A stretch of DNA of 64,000 bases, taken from positions 1 to 64,000 of the forward strand of contig JADPRS010000018.1 of NCBI GenBank assembly GCA_015686845.1, in the 5' to 3' direction. Both the position numbers and the translations under genes were made by a program. The notes beneath the pieces are model-generated. The model did no database searches. It had not been told where the DNA came from and was given only the letters and a program-made list of their open reading frames with translations. The first letter of the stretch is position 1. Each line of letters starts with the position of its first letter. Positions 18,745-46,411 of this stretch are shown here, piece after piece. The DNA is from Lutibacter sp. B2 (GTDB taxonomy: Bacteria; Bacillota; Clostridia; Peptostreptococcales; Thermotaleaceae).

Positions 18745-19080
18745 AAGTTAAATTAAATATTTCCAAAGTGAAGACAGAGAGAAAAATACTATTTCTTTAA
18801 CTACAGAGAGCCAACGGTTGGTGCAAGTTGGTGTTAAAATTAGTATATAATGATCACTCTAGAGCTGCCAAGTCGAAAAAACAGGATGAGTAGACGAGGA
18901 TGGTTGCCACCAATATATGGCTAGGGTTCAAATAAATGTATGAAATACAAATACAGTTTATTTCGACTTGAAAAATGAGGCAATAGTTACTATTGCAAAC
19001 TAGGGTGGTACCACGAAAATATAATCTTTCGTCCCTATAAATATTTATAAAATATTTATAGGGATGGAAGATTTTTTATT
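18745..19080 (+). promoter_or_regulatory. T-box riboswitch, probably methionine-specific
   Basis: Hallmarks are the distal stem I with GAGAGCC and GGTTGGTGCAA, the T-box core AGGGTGGTACCACG (19002-19015), and a terminator stem CCCTATAAATATT/AATATTTATAGGG with a T run. Stem I pairs ATACTA (18786-18791) with TAGTAT (18841-18846), TTTAAC with GTTAAA, and AGAGAGA with TCACTCT with one mismatch. The seven bases left on the 3' side, ATAATGA, place AUG (18850-18852) where the Trp T-box at 43 kb has UGG. The antiterminator UGGU fits a discriminator A, as in elongator tRNA-Met. The flank is ATA instead of the usual GAA, so the codon call is probable rather than certain. Confidence 0.85.
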
Positions 19081-39944: not shown

Positions 39945-41321
39945 TTAGACGAATAAATCACGTTCTCCTTGCTTTAATCTTTCTATATTATTTTCAAGAA
40001 GTTCTTTAACAGAAGGCTTAGAGATTTTTGATAATTCCTTTTCAATTAAGGCTGTGCCTTTTTCGTAAAGTTCAGAATCACCATAATCTAAGATGAATTC
40101 CATTAAAGTCATAAGTGCATTAGGGGTACAGACGTTGTGAATTTGACCAGATTTAGCAAGTCTCATAAAGCGATCTCCAGTACGTCCTTGTCTATAACAT
40201 GCTGTACAATAACTAGGAATATAGTGATCATCAATAAGCCATTTTATAATTTCAAGAGGACTTCGATGATCAGATAAATCAAATTGAGATATATCATTTC
40301 CTTCTTCATGTTCTTTATATCCGCCAACACCAGTACAAGAGCCTGCACTTACTTGGGATACACCATATTTTAATACTTCTTTTCTAATTTCTGCAGATTC
40401 ACGAGTAGATATGATGATGCCAGTAAAGGGTACTGCCAATCGTATGATTGCAACTATTTTTTTAAACATATTATCGTCTACTAGATGTGGGAATTTAGAC
40501 AAATCCATTCCCTCAGCTTTTTTAATTCTTGGAACAGAGATAGTATGAAAACCAACACCGAATGTATTTTCTAAATGTTCATTGTGAAGCATAAGTGCTA
40601 ATACTTCAAATTTTGAATCTGAAAGACCGAATAAAACGCCACCACCAACATCATCTATATGCGCTTCCATAGCACGGTCAAAAGCAGTTAGATGATATTC
40701 GTAATCTCCTTTTATTGATTTTGGATGAACTTTATCATAAGTAGGTTTATGGTATGTTTCTTGGAATAATATATAGGTTCCTATGTTTGCATCTTTTAAT
40801 TTTTTATAGTTTTCTACGGTAGTAGCAGCTATATTTACATTAATTCTTCTGATAGCACCATTATCATTTTCAGTTTTATAGATTGCGTCTATTGAATCTA
40901 AGACATAATCAATATCGCAATTTACAGGGTCTTCTCCTGCTTCTAGTGCAAGTCTTTTATGGCCCATTTTTTCTAGGAGCTTTACTTCTTCTTGTATTTC
41001 TTCTCTCGTTAATCTTCGTCTAGGAAATGAATTGTCTCTTCTATAACCACAGTAGGTACAATTATTAACACAATAATCACTGATATATAGAGGCGCAAAT
41101 ACGACTACTCGATTTCCATATATATCTTGTTTGATTTGTCCTGCAATATGAAATAATTCAGCAAGCTGAGATGGATCCTCTGTTTGAAGTAAACAGGCAA
41201 TTTCTTTATGAGATAAACCTTTTTTAGATGCTGCTTTATTTAATATTGCTTGAATATCTTCTTGTGTAGTATGTTTTGTTTCTTTCAGTAAATTTTCAAT
41301 ATAATCATGATTAATAAACAT
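39945..41321 (-). CDS. hydG: [FeFe]-hydrogenase maturation radical SAM enzyme HydG
   Basis: The 458-residue enzyme cleaves tyrosine to give the CO and CN- ligands of the H-cluster. It shows the radical-SAM motif CVNNCTYC (84-91) and the C-terminal second-cluster cysteines in CTACYRQGRTGDRFM plus a later Cys, which distinguish HydG from ThiH. It lies between hydE and hydF; the start follows GGAGG at the end of hydE, and one base separates the genes. Confidence 0.95.
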   Translation of the reverse strand: MFINHDYIENLLKETKHTTQEDIQAILNKAASKKGLSHKEIACLLQTEDPSQLAELFHIAGQIKQDIYGNRVVVFAPLYISDYCVNNCTYCGYRRDNSFPRRRLTREEIQEEVKLLEKMGHKRLALEAGEDPVNCDIDYVLDSIDAIYKTENDNGAIRRINVNIAATTVENYKKLKDANIGTYILFQETYHKPTYDKVHPKSIKGDYEYHLTAFDRAMEAHIDDVGGGVLFGLSDSKFEVLALMLHNEHLENTFGVGFHTISVPRIKKAEGMDLSKFPHLVDDNMFKKIVAIIRLAVPFTGIIISTRESAEIRKEVLKYGVSQVSAGSCTGVGGYKEHEEGNDISQFDLSDHRSPLEIIKWLIDDHYIPSYCTACYRQGRTGDRFMRLAKSGQIHNVCTPNALMTLMEFILDYGDSELYEKGTALIEKELSKISKPSVKELLENNIERLKQGERDLFV

Positions 41322-42368
41322 TTATATTCTCCTCCAATTGCAGTGGTCTCCTCTTGAAAAATCTAGAGAAAATCCTGCTTTATTAATTCTACCTTCGATA
41401 CATTTTCTGCAATGAGCTGATTCATCACCTGTACAAATTTTTCCGTCATAGAGCATATATTTCTCACGTACATAAAGAGGAGATAAATTTGGCATTACTA
41501 CATTTGCTCCTGCTTTTAGCCCCTGCTCACGTCCTAAAGGATCAATAGATCCTAATGCAGTCGTAGCAGGTAGTAATGCATTAGGAAGTAATAGTCTTAT
41601 GATTGCAAGTAAAAGAATGGTCTTATCTAAAGTTCCGCTTGTTTTACCAGATAAAGCTGTATCTTTGTGTGGAATAAATGGGCCAATTCCTATCATATGA
41701 GGTTCAAGCTCTTTTAAGAACATTAAATCATTTACAAAATCTTCATTTGTTTGATTTGGAAGACCAACCATAAAGCCAGCACCAATTTGATACCCAATAT
41801 CTTTTAAATCTTGAAGACATTGATGACGATTTTCAAAGCTCATAGTAGGATGAAGTGATTCATATAAATCTTTAGAAGCGGTTTCATGTCTCAAAAGATA
41901 TCGATCTGCTCCAGCATCATAATATTTTTTATAGGATTGCTTAGATTTTTCTCCTATAGATAGAGTAATGGCACAGTCTGGATACTTTGATTTTATAGAT
42001 GAAATGATTTCTACTATTTTATCATCTGTAAAAAATGGGTCTTCTCCACCTTGAAGTACAAATGTCCGATATCCTAGATGATATCCATCAGCACAGGCTG
42101 ATAATATTTCTTCTAAGGATAGTCTATATCTACTGGCATTTTTGTTAGAGGCTCTAATGCCACAATAGATACAATCATTTTTACAGTAGTTTGTAAATTC
42201 TAATAAGCCTCGTAAGAATACTTTATCCCCATAGGCTTTCATTCGTACTTCATGGGCTTTATCAATTAGATAATTTTGATCTTCCTTCGTAATATGCTCA
42301 AGTAAATAGAGCAATTCTTTTTCTGACAATGAATGGGTACAAGTCAATTTGTCTATAAGATGCTTCAT
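41322..42368 (-). CDS. hydE: [FeFe]-hydrogenase maturation radical SAM enzyme HydE
   Basis: The 348-residue radical-SAM enzyme has CKNDCIYC (62-69) for the catalytic [4Fe-4S] and a second cysteine group near the C-terminus (CTGDESAHCRKC), as in HydE proteins that build part of the H-cluster dithiolate. Its start overlaps the stop of the upstream TM1266-like gene (ATGA), so the two are translationally coupled. Confidence 0.94.
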   Translation of the reverse strand: MKHLIDKLTCTHSLSEKELLYLLEHITKEDQNYLIDKAHEVRMKAYGDKVFLRGLLEFTNYCKNDCIYCGIRASNKNASRYRLSLEEILSACADGYHLGYRTFVLQGGEDPFFTDDKIVEIISSIKSKYPDCAITLSIGEKSKQSYKKYYDAGADRYLLRHETASKDLYESLHPTMSFENRHQCLQDLKDIGYQIGAGFMVGLPNQTNEDFVNDLMFLKELEPHMIGIGPFIPHKDTALSGKTSGTLDKTILLLAIIRLLLPNALLPATTALGSIDPLGREQGLKAGANVVMPNLSPLYVREKYMLYDGKICTGDESAHCRKCIEGRINKAGFSLDFSRGDHCNWRRI

Positions 42369-42622
42369 ATAGATATTTCCTTTTTCGATATAGAAGTTTT
42401 AACTGAAACATTTGGTAGATTGCCCAATTTTCCAGTAAGGCTGTTGATTTCATCTAAATCACCTACCACAGTAATACATATGGCTGAAATTTGGGCTTCT
42501 TCAAATGGGAGGCCCATCCTTCCACGGATGATTCCTTTAAAGCTTGATATGATTTCATTAAATTTTTGTTGCGTCTGTGCAGGATTATCTAATATGGCAC
42601 TAATTACAGCGATTCTTTTCAT
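42365..42622 (-). CDS. TM1266-family iron-only hydrogenase system regulator
   Basis: The 85-residue protein KRIAVISAILDNPAQTQQKF...GRMGLPFEEAQISAICITVVGD is an ACT/NikR-C-like fold of the TM1266 family, which sits at the head of clostridial hyd maturation operons. It has no DNA-binding domain. AAAGGAG precedes ATG 42622. It is the first gene behind the attenuator-like leader at 42661-42761; a ligand or RNA-binding role in controlling that leader is my speculation. Confidence 0.85.
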   Translation of the reverse strand: MKRIAVISAILDNPAQTQQKFNEIISSFKGIIRGRMGLPFEEAQISAICITVVGDLDEINSLTGKLGNLPNVSVKTSISKKEISI

Positions 42623-42846
42623 GTGTAGGAACTCCTTTCTTGTAAAGAAAAAACAGTATAAAAAAAACTTTCCCAAAGGAAAGTTAGAATATGCAAAAGT
42701 AATACACTAAAATACAAGGATAGTGTATATTACTTAAAATCTCATATTTCTAATTTCCTTTCAGTTTAGAATGACTCTTTACTGTTAGGGAATTATATGT
42801 GGATAACCAAATAATAAAAGAAAAAATCTCTTAACATTTGGATTAC
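42622..42846 (-). promoter_or_regulatory. Hydrogenase maturation operon leader with terminator/antiterminator
   Basis: Reading the minus strand, an intrinsic terminator (AACTTTCC-ttt-GGAAAGTT plus eight T, plus-strand 42660-42685) lies about 40 bases before the first gene. Upstream, AAAGGAAATTAGAAATATG (42761-42743) is complementary to CATATTCTAACTTTCCTTT (42693-42675), which contains the left arm of the terminator. Between them is a further hairpin (42697-42735). The two folds are mutually exclusive, so the leader has the layout of a transcriptional switch. It does not resemble any riboswitch class I know. Confidence 0.75.
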
Positions 42847-42970: not shown

Positions 42971-43248
42971 TAATAAATATAAAGCAATGATTGAGAAGAG
43001 TAAATTTGTAGAGGAATTACAGAGAGTTAGCAGTTGGTGGGATGCTAATATTCTAAAACAGATTGAATGGGCTCATGAGTGGGAGCTGAAATTTTAGTAG
43101 GCGACACGGGTTCTCCCGTTATAGAGATCAGATATCGGATATTCCTGTATCTTAAAAGAGATAATTACAATTTTTTTGTAATTAACACGAGGTGGTACCG
43201 CGATAAATTCGTCCTCTATATGCATCATGCATATAGGGGATTTTTTAT
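42971..43248 (+). promoter_or_regulatory. T-box riboswitch, tryptophan-specific
   Basis: Stem I has AGTA (5') and GAA-UGG-G (3', codon 43068-43070), the classic specifier-loop arrangement. The distal part is GAGAGTTAGCA with GTTGGTGGGA, the core is GAGGTGGTACCGCG, and the terminator is CTCTATATGCAT/ATGCATATAGGG with TTTTTT. UGG reads tRNA-Trp, consistent with the downstream TrpP gene. The antiterminator base after UGG is U, whereas bacterial tRNA-Trp usually ends in discriminator G; a G-U pair would be needed. Confidence 0.9.
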
Positions 43249-43345: not shown

Positions 43346-43867
43346 ATGGAATTAAGAAAAAATATTATAACAGCATTACTGATTGCTGTTGGATTTATAC
43401 TAAGTCAAATTATTCCAGGAATAATTGTAGGTATGAAATTTGATTTGATGTTATCTGTAATGTTTGTATGTCTTCTCATTAATAAAGAGTTTAAGAATGT
43501 TTTGGTTACAGCGTTTTTAGGAGGAGTGATTACTGCTATGACAACTACTTTTCCAGGAGGACAATTACCGAATCTTATTGATAAATTTATAACCTGCATG
43601 ATGGTATATTTTATAATTAGAATAATGGGAAAATTTAGAAAAAATTTATTGGGAATAGGAATGGTTGCATTTATAGGAACATTGATCAGTGGAAGTGTAT
43701 TCTTGACTTCTGCAAGTATGATTGTAGGACTTCCAGCTAAATTTAAATTACTTTTTATGGGCATTGTACTACCTACAGCTTTTGCCAATGTACTTGTAAC
43801 AATATTGGTATATAAAGCTGTAAATGTAGCTATGAAGATTTCAAAGATAAAATTTATAAATGAATAA
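43346..43867 (+). CDS. trpP: Tryptophan transporter TrpP
   Basis: The 173-residue membrane protein has about five helices and the TrpP family segments GMKFDLMLSVMFV and TTTFPGGQLPNLIDKF. It takes up tryptophan. AAAGGAGAG precedes the start. It is governed by the Trp T-box at 42971; between them lies a perfect AAGGAGGTGATCAGT site followed by only ATG-TTG-TGA. It is monocistronic, with no obvious terminator directly after it. Confidence 0.9.
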   Translation: MELRKNIITALLIAVGFILSQIIPGIIVGMKFDLMLSVMFVCLLINKEFKNVLVTAFLGGVITAMTTTFPGGQLPNLIDKFITCMMVYFIIRIMGKFRKNLLGIGMVAFIGTLISGSVFLTSASMIVGLPAKFKLLFMGIVLPTAFANVLVTILVYKAVNVAMKISKIKFINE

Positions 43868-43979: not shown

Positions 43980-44281
43980 TTGACAAATGCATTTTTATAT
44001 GATAGGCTGATCAAAGAATAATATTTGAAATGAATTGTGAAGTAGATATTAGTAGTAGCTGGGTTTGTGAGCTTAAATATGTTAATGAATAGACAGATTT
44101 AAGTAAACTAACCAAAACATTGCGAGATTAATATTGAAAAATAATATTCATAGAACTGGGGTCTGCTTAGGTTCATATGGGTCTAAGCTATACTACTATT
44201 AGTGGTATAAAGTGAGTCAATACTGGCGAAACTTAGGCACTCTAACTCTATACATTGTATAGAGTTAGAGTGCTTTTTTTA
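43980..44281 (+). promoter_or_regulatory. Long structured leader with terminator upstream of the BCCT gene
   Basis: TTGACA (43980-43985) and TAGGCT (44003-44008), 17 bases apart, would start an RNA near 44015. It contains hairpins CTTAAAT/ATTTAAG (44072-44103), GCTTAG/CTAAGC (44165-44188) and ATACTACT/AGTGGTAT (44190-44208), and ends with a perfect 17-bp terminator stem (44237-44273) plus TTTTTTT, 33 bases before the BCCT start. GTCTAAG (44181-44187) can alternatively pair with CTTAGGC (44232-44238), breaking the GCTTAG hairpin and the terminator base. 43868-43979 holds nothing recognisable. No known riboswitch consensus was seen. Confidence 0.6.
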
Positions 44282-44313
44282 TTATAAAAAACAATTTAGA
44301 AAGGTGGAATATT

Positions 44314-45969
44314 ATGGATAAAAATAAAAATTTGAATGTACGTATTGAAGAAAAATTATATAGTAGAAACTTCAAAAAATTCGGTCTAGATCTGAATCCA
44401 GTTGTATCTATTGCAGCAGGTGTGTTTTTTTTGATTTTTGCAGGTTTTGCATTGTTAAACCTAGAAAAAACACAAACCATATTTGAAACCATTAAAACCT
44501 CTATTTTATCAAAAGGAGGTTGGGTGTTTATAGTATCAAGTAATTTTTTTATTCTGGTATGCTTATTATTAGCTTTCTCGAAGTACGGTACAATTAAACT
44601 CGGTGGCGTTAATGCAAAAACTGACTTTTCAAATTTTGCTTGGTACTCTATGTTAATATCTGCGGGTATGGGTATTGGATTAATGTTTTATGGTGTTGGG
44701 GAACCACTATATCATAATAACACTACGCCACCAATATTTAAAAGTTCTAATTTGGTCAATTCTGCATTGGCTACAACTTTTTTTCATTGGGGAATACATG
44801 CATGGTCTATTTATGCAATCGTTGCATTAGCGTTAGCTTTTTTTGCCTATAATAAAAAACTACCACTGTCAATGCGTTCAGTGTTTTATCCAATATTAAA
44901 AGATAAAGTCTTTGGTATTGCGGGTGATATTATTGATATTTTAGCTGTAATTGCATGTTTATTTGGATTAGCAGCATCTCTAGGTGTTGGGGTGCAACAA
45001 ATCAATAGTGGACTGAATTATCTTACTGGTATTCCTTATAGTGTAACTGTTCAAGTTATTCTAATTATCGTTGTAACGGGAATTGCTACACTCTCAGTAG
45101 TGTCTGGTTTAGATAAGGGTGTTAAAATTTTATCTAAATTAAATATAAAAATGGCTTTTATTTTCATGGTTTGTGTTTTTCTATTAGGGCCTACTACCTA
45201 TATCATTAAAACTTTCCTTAATTCTTTTGGATTGTATATTAATGATTTGATTCAATCTTCTTTCTTTATTTCCTATAAGGATACAAGCTGGCAAGTTAGC
45301 TGGTCTGTGTTCTACTTAGCGTGGTGGATGTCATGGTCGCCATTTGTTGGTATGTTTATTGCCAGAATTTCAAAGGGGAGAACCATTAAGGAATTTATAT
45401 TAGCTGTTATGATTATTCCTTCATTATTATCTTTTGTATGGTTTTCTGTTTTCGGAGGAAGTGCTATATTTATTAATGAAGGTGTTGGTGGTAAACTATT
45501 TGAAGTTGTACAAAATAATTTACCTGTTGCATTATTTGAAATGATTAATTATTTAGAAATACCTGCTTTTACGGGGATCATTCAAACTGTATTATCAATA
45601 CTAGCAACGCTTTTGATTATTTCATTCTTTGTTACTTCTAGTGATTCTGGGTCACTGGTTATTGATAATATTACTTCTGGAGGTAAATTAGATAGTCCAG
45701 TACCACAAAGAATTTTCTGGGCATGTATGGAAGGGTTAATAGCAGCTGTCCTTTTACTTATTGGAGGGGAGGAAATTCTTTCCATATTGCAAACGGCCAT
45801 CATTACTACGGGGCTACCATTGGCAATAGTGATAGTTATAATGGCTATTACTTTAGTTGGTAGTGTGAAAGAAGAATATGAAAAGCAGGAAAAAATAAAG
45901 ACCGTACGATCACATAAAAAAGTTCGTTCAATTATTCGTGAGGAAGAGAATCGGAATGAATTTGCATAA
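44314..45969 (+). CDS. BCCT-family betaine/carnitine/choline transporter
   Basis: The 551-residue transporter has 12 hydrophobic segments and the BCCT signatures TFFHWGIHAWSIYAI and WWMSWSPFVGMFIARISKGR, with the Trp residues that line the quaternary-amine pocket. It imports betaine-type solutes with Na+ or exchanges them. GAAAGGTGG precedes the start. The N- and C-terminal tails are charged, as in osmosensing relatives. It is the second osmolyte carrier in the window after the ABC importer at 7.5 kb. Confidence 0.92.
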   Translation: MDKNKNLNVRIEEKLYSRNFKKFGLDLNPVVSIAAGVFFLIFAGFALLNLEKTQTIFETIKTSILSKGGWVFIVSSNFFILVCLLLAFSKYGTIKLGGVNAKTDFSNFAWYSMLISAGMGIGLMFYGVGEPLYHNNTTPPIFKSSNLVNSALATTFFHWGIHAWSIYAIVALALAFFAYNKKLPLSMRSVFYPILKDKVFGIAGDIIDILAVIACLFGLAASLGVGVQQINSGLNYLTGIPYSVTVQVILIIVVTGIATLSVVSGLDKGVKILSKLNIKMAFIFMVCVFLLGPTTYIIKTFLNSFGLYINDLIQSSFFISYKDTSWQVSWSVFYLAWWMSWSPFVGMFIARISKGRTIKEFILAVMIIPSLLSFVWFSVFGGSAIFINEGVGGKLFEVVQNNLPVALFEMINYLEIPAFTGIIQTVLSILATLLIISFFVTSSDSGSLVIDNITSGGKLDSPVPQRIFWACMEGLIAAVLLLIGGEEILSILQTAIITTGLPLAIVIVIMAITLVGSVKEEYEKQEKIKTVRSHKKVRSIIREEENRNEFA

Positions 45970-46029: not shown

Positions 46030-46236
46030 CTATTTTCTGGCAATTTGATCTTCCGTGCATTGAATTAAGTCAGCCATTAACTTACCACCAACATAGTCTC
46101 CTTGATTTTGTCTATAGGTAAGGTCACCTTTTTCTATTCTATCTAAAGCAGATGCAGGTGATTCATCAGCAAATTCAGATTTTAATTTTTCAAAAGCATT
46201 CTTCGCTTTCTCAACTACAGACTTATCTTCAGACAT
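46030..46236 (-). CDS. Divergent alpha/beta-type small acid-soluble spore protein
   Basis: The 68-residue protein ends in TYRQNQGDYVGGKLMADLIQ, which matches the SASP helix pair (TSRQNGSVGGEMTKRLVQM-like), and EFADE lies where the germination protease site (E-I/F-A-S-E) is expected. It is more acidic and has an insertion (PASALDRIEKGDL) compared with major SASPs, so it resembles minor or SspF-like forms. Such proteins coat spore DNA. AAAGGAG precedes the start. A CATATTA -10-like element lies about 75 bases upstream, but no good -35 for sigma-G was found. Confidence 0.75.
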   Translation of the reverse strand: MSEDKSVVEKAKNAFEKLKSEFADESPASALDRIEKGDLTYRQNQGDYVGGKLMADLIQCTEDQIARK

Positions 46237-46411
46237 GAAATCAACTCCTTTAATTGTAGTACGATATTAGTATTTCCAAGTTAGCAGAATAAATTTATTG
46301 TATAATATGGTTATTTTTTAATACAAATTGATTTGAACTATTAGTGGAATTATTTGGTATAATGAAAGTGGGATGATTATAAAAAATTTACTTGGGAAAA
46401 GGGGAATAGGG

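Follow-up and report, generated by a model that had tools for sequence, protein, structure and literature searches.

The window analysed here, a stretch of 64,000 nucleotides from Lutibacter sp. B2 (contig JADPRS010000018.1), contains on its forward strand a gene for a BCCT osmolyte transporter of 551 amino acids (44314–45969), preceded by a ribosome-binding site read from the sequence, AAAGGTGG (44300–44307). The encoded protein matches TIGR00842 with 467 bits, exceeding the cut-off of 407.55, and reaches 507 bits with the glycine betaine equivalog model, under that model's cut-off of 650. Upstream of this gene, on the same strand, lies a leader RNA (~44037–44280), an intricate fold that is conserved across many bacteria and that probably decides the transcription of the downstream salt-protection genes. 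Elsewhere in the neighbourhood, a small ORF on the minus strand (46040–46237) has the look of a small acid-soluble spore protein of the alpha/beta type, and the host is thus probably spore-forming; the minus strand at 39945–42676 carries an FeFe hydrogenase maturation cluster that encodes HydG (confirmed with NCBIfam), a radical SAM protein resembling HydE, and one further small protein.

An earlier sequence-only reading of this DNA had described the region as a regulated leader with a promoter, multiple hairpins and a terminator before the BCCT gene. The intrinsic terminator (44235–44280), located by a terminator scan and by folding, is indeed present: its stem (44235–44275) comprises 19 pairs counting G-U, a T-run follows (44274–44280), and it ends 33 bases 5′ of the ATG at 44314. 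The leader folds with −79 kcal/mol (z −6.6 against shuffled sequences) into several predicted hairpins, in agreement with that description. The putative promoter (43980–44008), read from the sequence, has a perfect −35 element, TTGACA (43980–43985), but its −10 element TAGGCT (44003–44008), at 17-base spacing and with a TG extension, is poor, and the site is absent from the promoter scan list. At the equivalent place relatives carry a clear TTGACA-17-TATAAT (e.g. L020).

The fold is supported by covariation. Among 85 aligned members, 96.3% of the pair cells are standard, and compensatory changes on both sides are seen in 27 of the 31 base pairs. Doubly changed cells number 552 versus 125 in shuffles, none of 500 shuffles reaching the observed value, and when partners are slid by 1–3 columns pairing falls to 28–46% and the signal is lost. 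Earlier, smaller alignments agree. Some helices sat in the model used for alignment, which biases these counts in their favour; P0 and P4b, which no model contained, came to light through mutual information or inspection and were counted only afterwards. Altogether, conservation and covariation across relatives exclude that the leader is a product of chance, and the poor conservation that would have spoken against it was not found.

The 5′ arm (44039–44141) starts with GAAGTA (44039–44044) and is closed by helix Pa (44045–44053/44128–44135), with AGTA (44054–44057) opposite GAGA (44124–44127) and GAAAAA (44136–44141) at its 3′ end. Pa is 80.7% paired in 54 sequences versus 49.7% in shuffles, with 152 versus 57 double changes; an alignment covering the arm comprised 52 sequences. 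The arm's two AGTA/GAA-type internal loops resemble, by sequence, bulged-G (loop E) motifs. Four members (L156, L157, L117 and L180) have a naturally short arm that keeps little beyond the AGTA/GAA loops, which suggests that its distal part is dispensable.

The core of the leader begins with P0, in which TAGA (44151–44154) pairs with TCTA (44247–44250). This helix, found by mutual information, is 95.8% paired, and its variable pair occurs as UA in 32, GC in 21 and AU in 12 members (89% standard). Between P0 and P1 lies the near-invariant loop ACTGGG/ACTCTAAC (44155–44160 with 44239–44246), a natural candidate for a binding site. P1 (GTCT 44161–44164 with AGGC 44235–44238) is 99.1% paired and all four of its pairs are doubly changed. 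It encloses the P2/P2b hairpin (44165–44188; 8 of 8 pairs covary), the P3 hairpin (44189–44209; 99.1% paired, 7 of 8 pairs doubly changed) and the P4b/P4 hairpin with its internal loop TGA/GAAA (44210–44234), in which P4 covaries and P4b was derived from mutual information. P1, P2, P3 and P4 adjoin without linkers and form a perfect four-way junction. P1 was preferred over a helix predicted by the energy model, TGGGGT/ACTCTA, for which no covariation is seen. In a subgroup of members that precede ablB genes (L153, L154, L155 and L158), CTCTTCCTCT replaces CTCTAACTCT and GAGATGGGA replaces GAACTGGGG; such linked changes in the putative binding loop may mark another specificity.

The sequence-only reading had also pointed to an alternative pairing between GTCTAAG (44181–44187) and CTTAGGC (44232–44238) that would conflict with a stable hairpin. 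This complementarity is present, but it is local to the window sequence and not a conserved pairing: in relatives, AGGC 44235–44238 pairs, with covariation, with the upstream GTCT 44161–44164. Competing folds thus exist, yet the conserved competitors are P1 and P0. Indeed, the strand AGGCACTCTAACTCTAT (44235–44251) supplies the 3′ side of P1, of the loop and of P0, and is at the same time the 5′ arm of the terminator; hence the two folds are mutually exclusive. In every one of the 85 members it forms 10 or more pairs with the 3′ arm of the terminator (median 15), while in the control with the next 40 bases shuffled this number is reached in 24 of 85. Ordinary terminator arms are not near-invariant; here the arm CACTCTAACTCT is nearly so because the strand doubles as the 3′ strand of P0/P1. 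Folding of the window transcript to 44252 or 44262 yields P0 and the three junction hairpins, and to 44281 the terminator, with the register that the energy model chooses next to P1 differing from the covarying one and lacking covariation support. Of the features of a transcriptional riboswitch in general, the region shows a covarying structured 5′ leader, an expression platform that excludes the conserved fold throughout the alignment, and coherent downstream genes. In riboswitches with such an overlap, for example that for Na+, ligand binding leads to read-through (PMC9337991).

The leader is not confined to the window. Homologues, several of them multi-copy, were found by blastn with the window leader in the genomes of relatives, and an initial alignment of 23 sequences, in which blocks of identity alternate with stems that change in step, was the source of a first covariance model. 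Within the order this model matched in 35 of 394 genomes, and within the class in 16 of 391; a second one, built on 60 members, matched in 30 of 398 genomes of the phylum. Once overlaps are removed, the matches amount to ~76 genomes, which we assign to Bacillota from gene content and the organism names of near relatives. By blastn of plasmids the leader was also found in two Fusobacteriota, on pILYOP01 of Ilyobacter polytropus, where it lies at about 562830–563097 of NC_014633.1, and on pZRK30-3 of Fusobacteria bacterium ZRK30, and both sequences match the covariance model (E 1e-15 and 3e-19). The model is specific, since it gave nothing better than E 2.5 when run on 586 kb surrounding other BCCT genes, most of them proteobacterial. 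The leader was not found before named BCCT loci in genome contigs or in a phage collection. That a close BCCT homologue in Clostridium ganghwense (70% identity) lacks it counts against the main reading proposed below. Rfam 15, at gathering and permissive thresholds, yielded no family at the leader in the window or in 40 relatives, which upholds the earlier statement that it lacks known riboswitch cores; the leader belongs to a large family of RNAs that Rfam 15 does not contain. Open-access literature on betaine, BCCT, aminomutase and osmolyte riboswitches returned only known classes. No described RNA family appears to match the leader, and the trpB motif differs from it by description.

What the members share is the kind of gene they precede. 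The first downstream genes of 88 members encode 27 polar amino-acid ABC binding proteins, the commonest class, followed by 17 BCCT transporters, 14 ProV-type ATPases, 14 AblA (lysine 2,3-aminomutase), 6 AblB (beta-lysine acetyltransferase), 4 ProW-type permeases, 2 PLP enzymes and single others. Hence 55 of the 88 belong to recognised families of osmolyte uptake or synthesis, and 27 more are of the amino-acid ABC type. Representative BCCT, ProV, AblA and AblB proteins score over the curated NCBIfam cut-offs; two scanned representatives of the amino-acid type fall below the cut-off for all specific families, EhuB included. Independent annotation in PLSDB places a BCCT gene after the Ilyobacter polytropus leader and a betaine/proline/choline ABC gene after that of ZRK30. 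A few members stand before genes of other kinds (PHP, TetR, phosphoribosyltransferase), which likewise counts against the main reading. The PLP enzyme, a relative of threonine synthase, is encoded by the first gene after the leader in L151, where it has an acetyltransferase-like C-terminal end, and in L165, and by the second in L117; these genes possibly represent an undescribed osmolyte pathway. The claim of a regulated leader is thus strengthened by a covarying, conserved fold that stands before osmolyte genes in many genomes, and it is from this arrangement that we infer regulation.

With this in mind, we consider it probable that the leader is a riboswitch-like antitermination RNA, from an undescribed cis-regulatory family, that would turn on osmoprotection by binding a ligand and switching. 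In the nascent RNA, P0/P1 would fold before the terminator can. Osmotic stress would raise a signal that stabilises P0/P1, and the simplest way for it to do so would be to bind the loop ACTGGG/ACTCTAAC. The stabilised helices would block the terminator and allow transcription of the osmolyte gene, whereas the terminator would prevail if the signal were absent. This ON direction, in which the aptamer fold favours read-through, is read from the strand overlap. BCCT and Opu-type import and the synthesis of N-epsilon-acetyl-beta-lysine have a purpose in common, not a substrate, and as no one substrate unites BCCT, ProV-type ABC, AblA and AblB, a general cue is likelier than a single osmolyte; an ion (K+ or Na+) or a second messenger would be examples. 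Glycine betaine, as a feedback signal, would be expected to switch the genes off where the overlap predicts on, and c-di-AMP meets the same difficulty. Our guess is that an ion rising early in osmotic stress fits best. It is conceivable, although we would not count on it, that the family is a class of riboswitches, present in more than one phylum, in which the cell's ionic or osmotic state (e.g. K+ or ionic strength) is read directly and compatible solutes are both imported and synthesised in response.

Other readings of the same data have to be weighed. Osmotic stress might induce a protein antiterminator, or some other trans factor, that binds the leader RNA in place of a ligand; the lack of a common substrate in the regulon favours this reading, and the conserved loop could accommodate a protein as well as a small molecule. 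We regard this as unlikely, since a perfect four-way junction with a second covarying domain is more elaborate than the usual protein-binding leaders and the family spans two phyla. The many amino-acid-type ABC genes could point to an amino acid signal, which counts against our main reading. The leader would then sense an amino acid or a derivative, for instance lysine or beta-lysine, the substrates of AblA and AblB, and control the osmolyte genes via that common metabolism. At least 31 of the 88 downstream genes, however, belong to BCCT and ProV-type glycine betaine systems that do not use lysine, and the lysine riboswitch model of Rfam 15 is unmatched in the window and 40 relatives, which together leave this reading with a small chance.

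A second architecture of the c-di-AMP riboswitch would account for a regulon of like kind, and two genes for c-di-AMP cyclases occur in the window's genome, in which no ydaO riboswitch was found. Most carriers of the leader in the window's taxonomic family also lack ydaO; across the genomes of this family (G000 to G015) the two RNAs occur mostly in different genomes and together only in G004 and G010. The presence of both in these two relatives speaks against such an identity, and so does the direction of control, as the overlap predicts ON with ligand and c-di-AMP normally signals that osmolytes are unneeded (PMC9337991); we hold it to be improbable. That the leader is a plain attenuator with an upstream ORF, or a small RNA of unrelated function whose 3′ end is the terminator, is very hard to reconcile with the data and has hardly any chance of being correct. 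A 20-codon ORF does start at 44030 in the window, but in relatives it is interrupted immediately (L170 and L213 have ATGAAGTAG), and a leader peptide was rejected as the ORF is not conserved. The alignment has the pattern of covariation rather than of coding, the leader stands consistently right before osmolyte genes, and the 5′ arm of the terminator belongs to the conserved fold, which settles the doubt, raised in the sequence-only reading, that the terminator might be that of an unrelated small RNA.

In summary, our analysis describes a large and widespread RNA family tied to osmolyte genes that has neither an entry in Rfam nor a description in the literature searched. To our knowledge, RNA sensors of osmotic state are few, namely the c-di-AMP and Na+ riboswitches. 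A class that covers BCCT, ProV-type, AblA and AblB genes would make the compatible-solute signal of anaerobic Bacillota and Fusobacteriota directly testable, and the cultured Ilyobacter polytropus is an accessible case.

Among known RNA classes, the T-box (RF00230) shares with the leader a loop-E-like AGTA/GAA motif in the 5′ arm, a choice between antiterminator and terminator, and TGG in a conserved bulge, but this TGG varies among the members, several of which have TGTG. A T-box was rejected, as RF00230 has no match at the leader and TGGNACCGCG is missing, whereas the model gives high scores to two genuine T-boxes elsewhere in the window. One of them (42978–43219, 129 bits) lies upstream of a gene for a small membrane protein (43346–43867) that by inspection looks like a tryptophan transporter and has no NCBIfam match; the other is at 18762–19039 (114.6 bits). 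Another riboswitch (PMC8632094) likewise has conserved aptamer bases inside a terminator stem and is turned on by its ligand, yet these bases sit at the tip of a single terminator hairpin, its genes are others, and there is no Rfam match.

The proX motif of Spiribacter and the opuB motif of Enterobacteriaceae are riboswitch candidates before glycine betaine/proline transporter genes (PMC8632094, PMC11109978). Compared by description, they act on the ribosome-binding site in Proteobacteria, whereas the leader employs a transcription terminator in Bacillota and Fusobacteriota; occlusion of the Shine-Dalgarno sequence was rejected for the leader, whose fold ends in the intrinsic terminator with the ribosome-binding site outside it. 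Closer in range is the trpB motif (SRC-39-1), which occurs in Firmicutes and Fusobacteria, mostly before an amino-acid-type ABC transporter and with a terminator, but is described as having at least two hairpins and is simpler than the leader (PMC11109978). The genome used for its numbering seems to be Streptococcus, judging from the numbering of other motifs, and no trpB was recognised among the 88 downstream genes. By description, the simpler structure, this apparent origin and the lack of trpB argue against the leader being the trpB motif, although the two may still overlap.

The c-di-AMP riboswitch (ydaO-yuaA, RF00379) governs osmotic-stress genes in the same bacterial group, but its core differs from that of the leader, and its model has no match at the leader, in the leaders of 40 relatives or anywhere in the window's genome. 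The Na+ riboswitch (DUF1646, RF03071) has a model of only 55 positions as opposed to the ~240 nt and four-way junction of the leader, and this model finds no match at the leader, in the window's genome or in 59 relatives searched. In its logic it is nevertheless similar, for it governs osmolyte genes, including ablA in some bacteria, and is an ON switch in which an aptamer competes with a terminator (PMC9337991).
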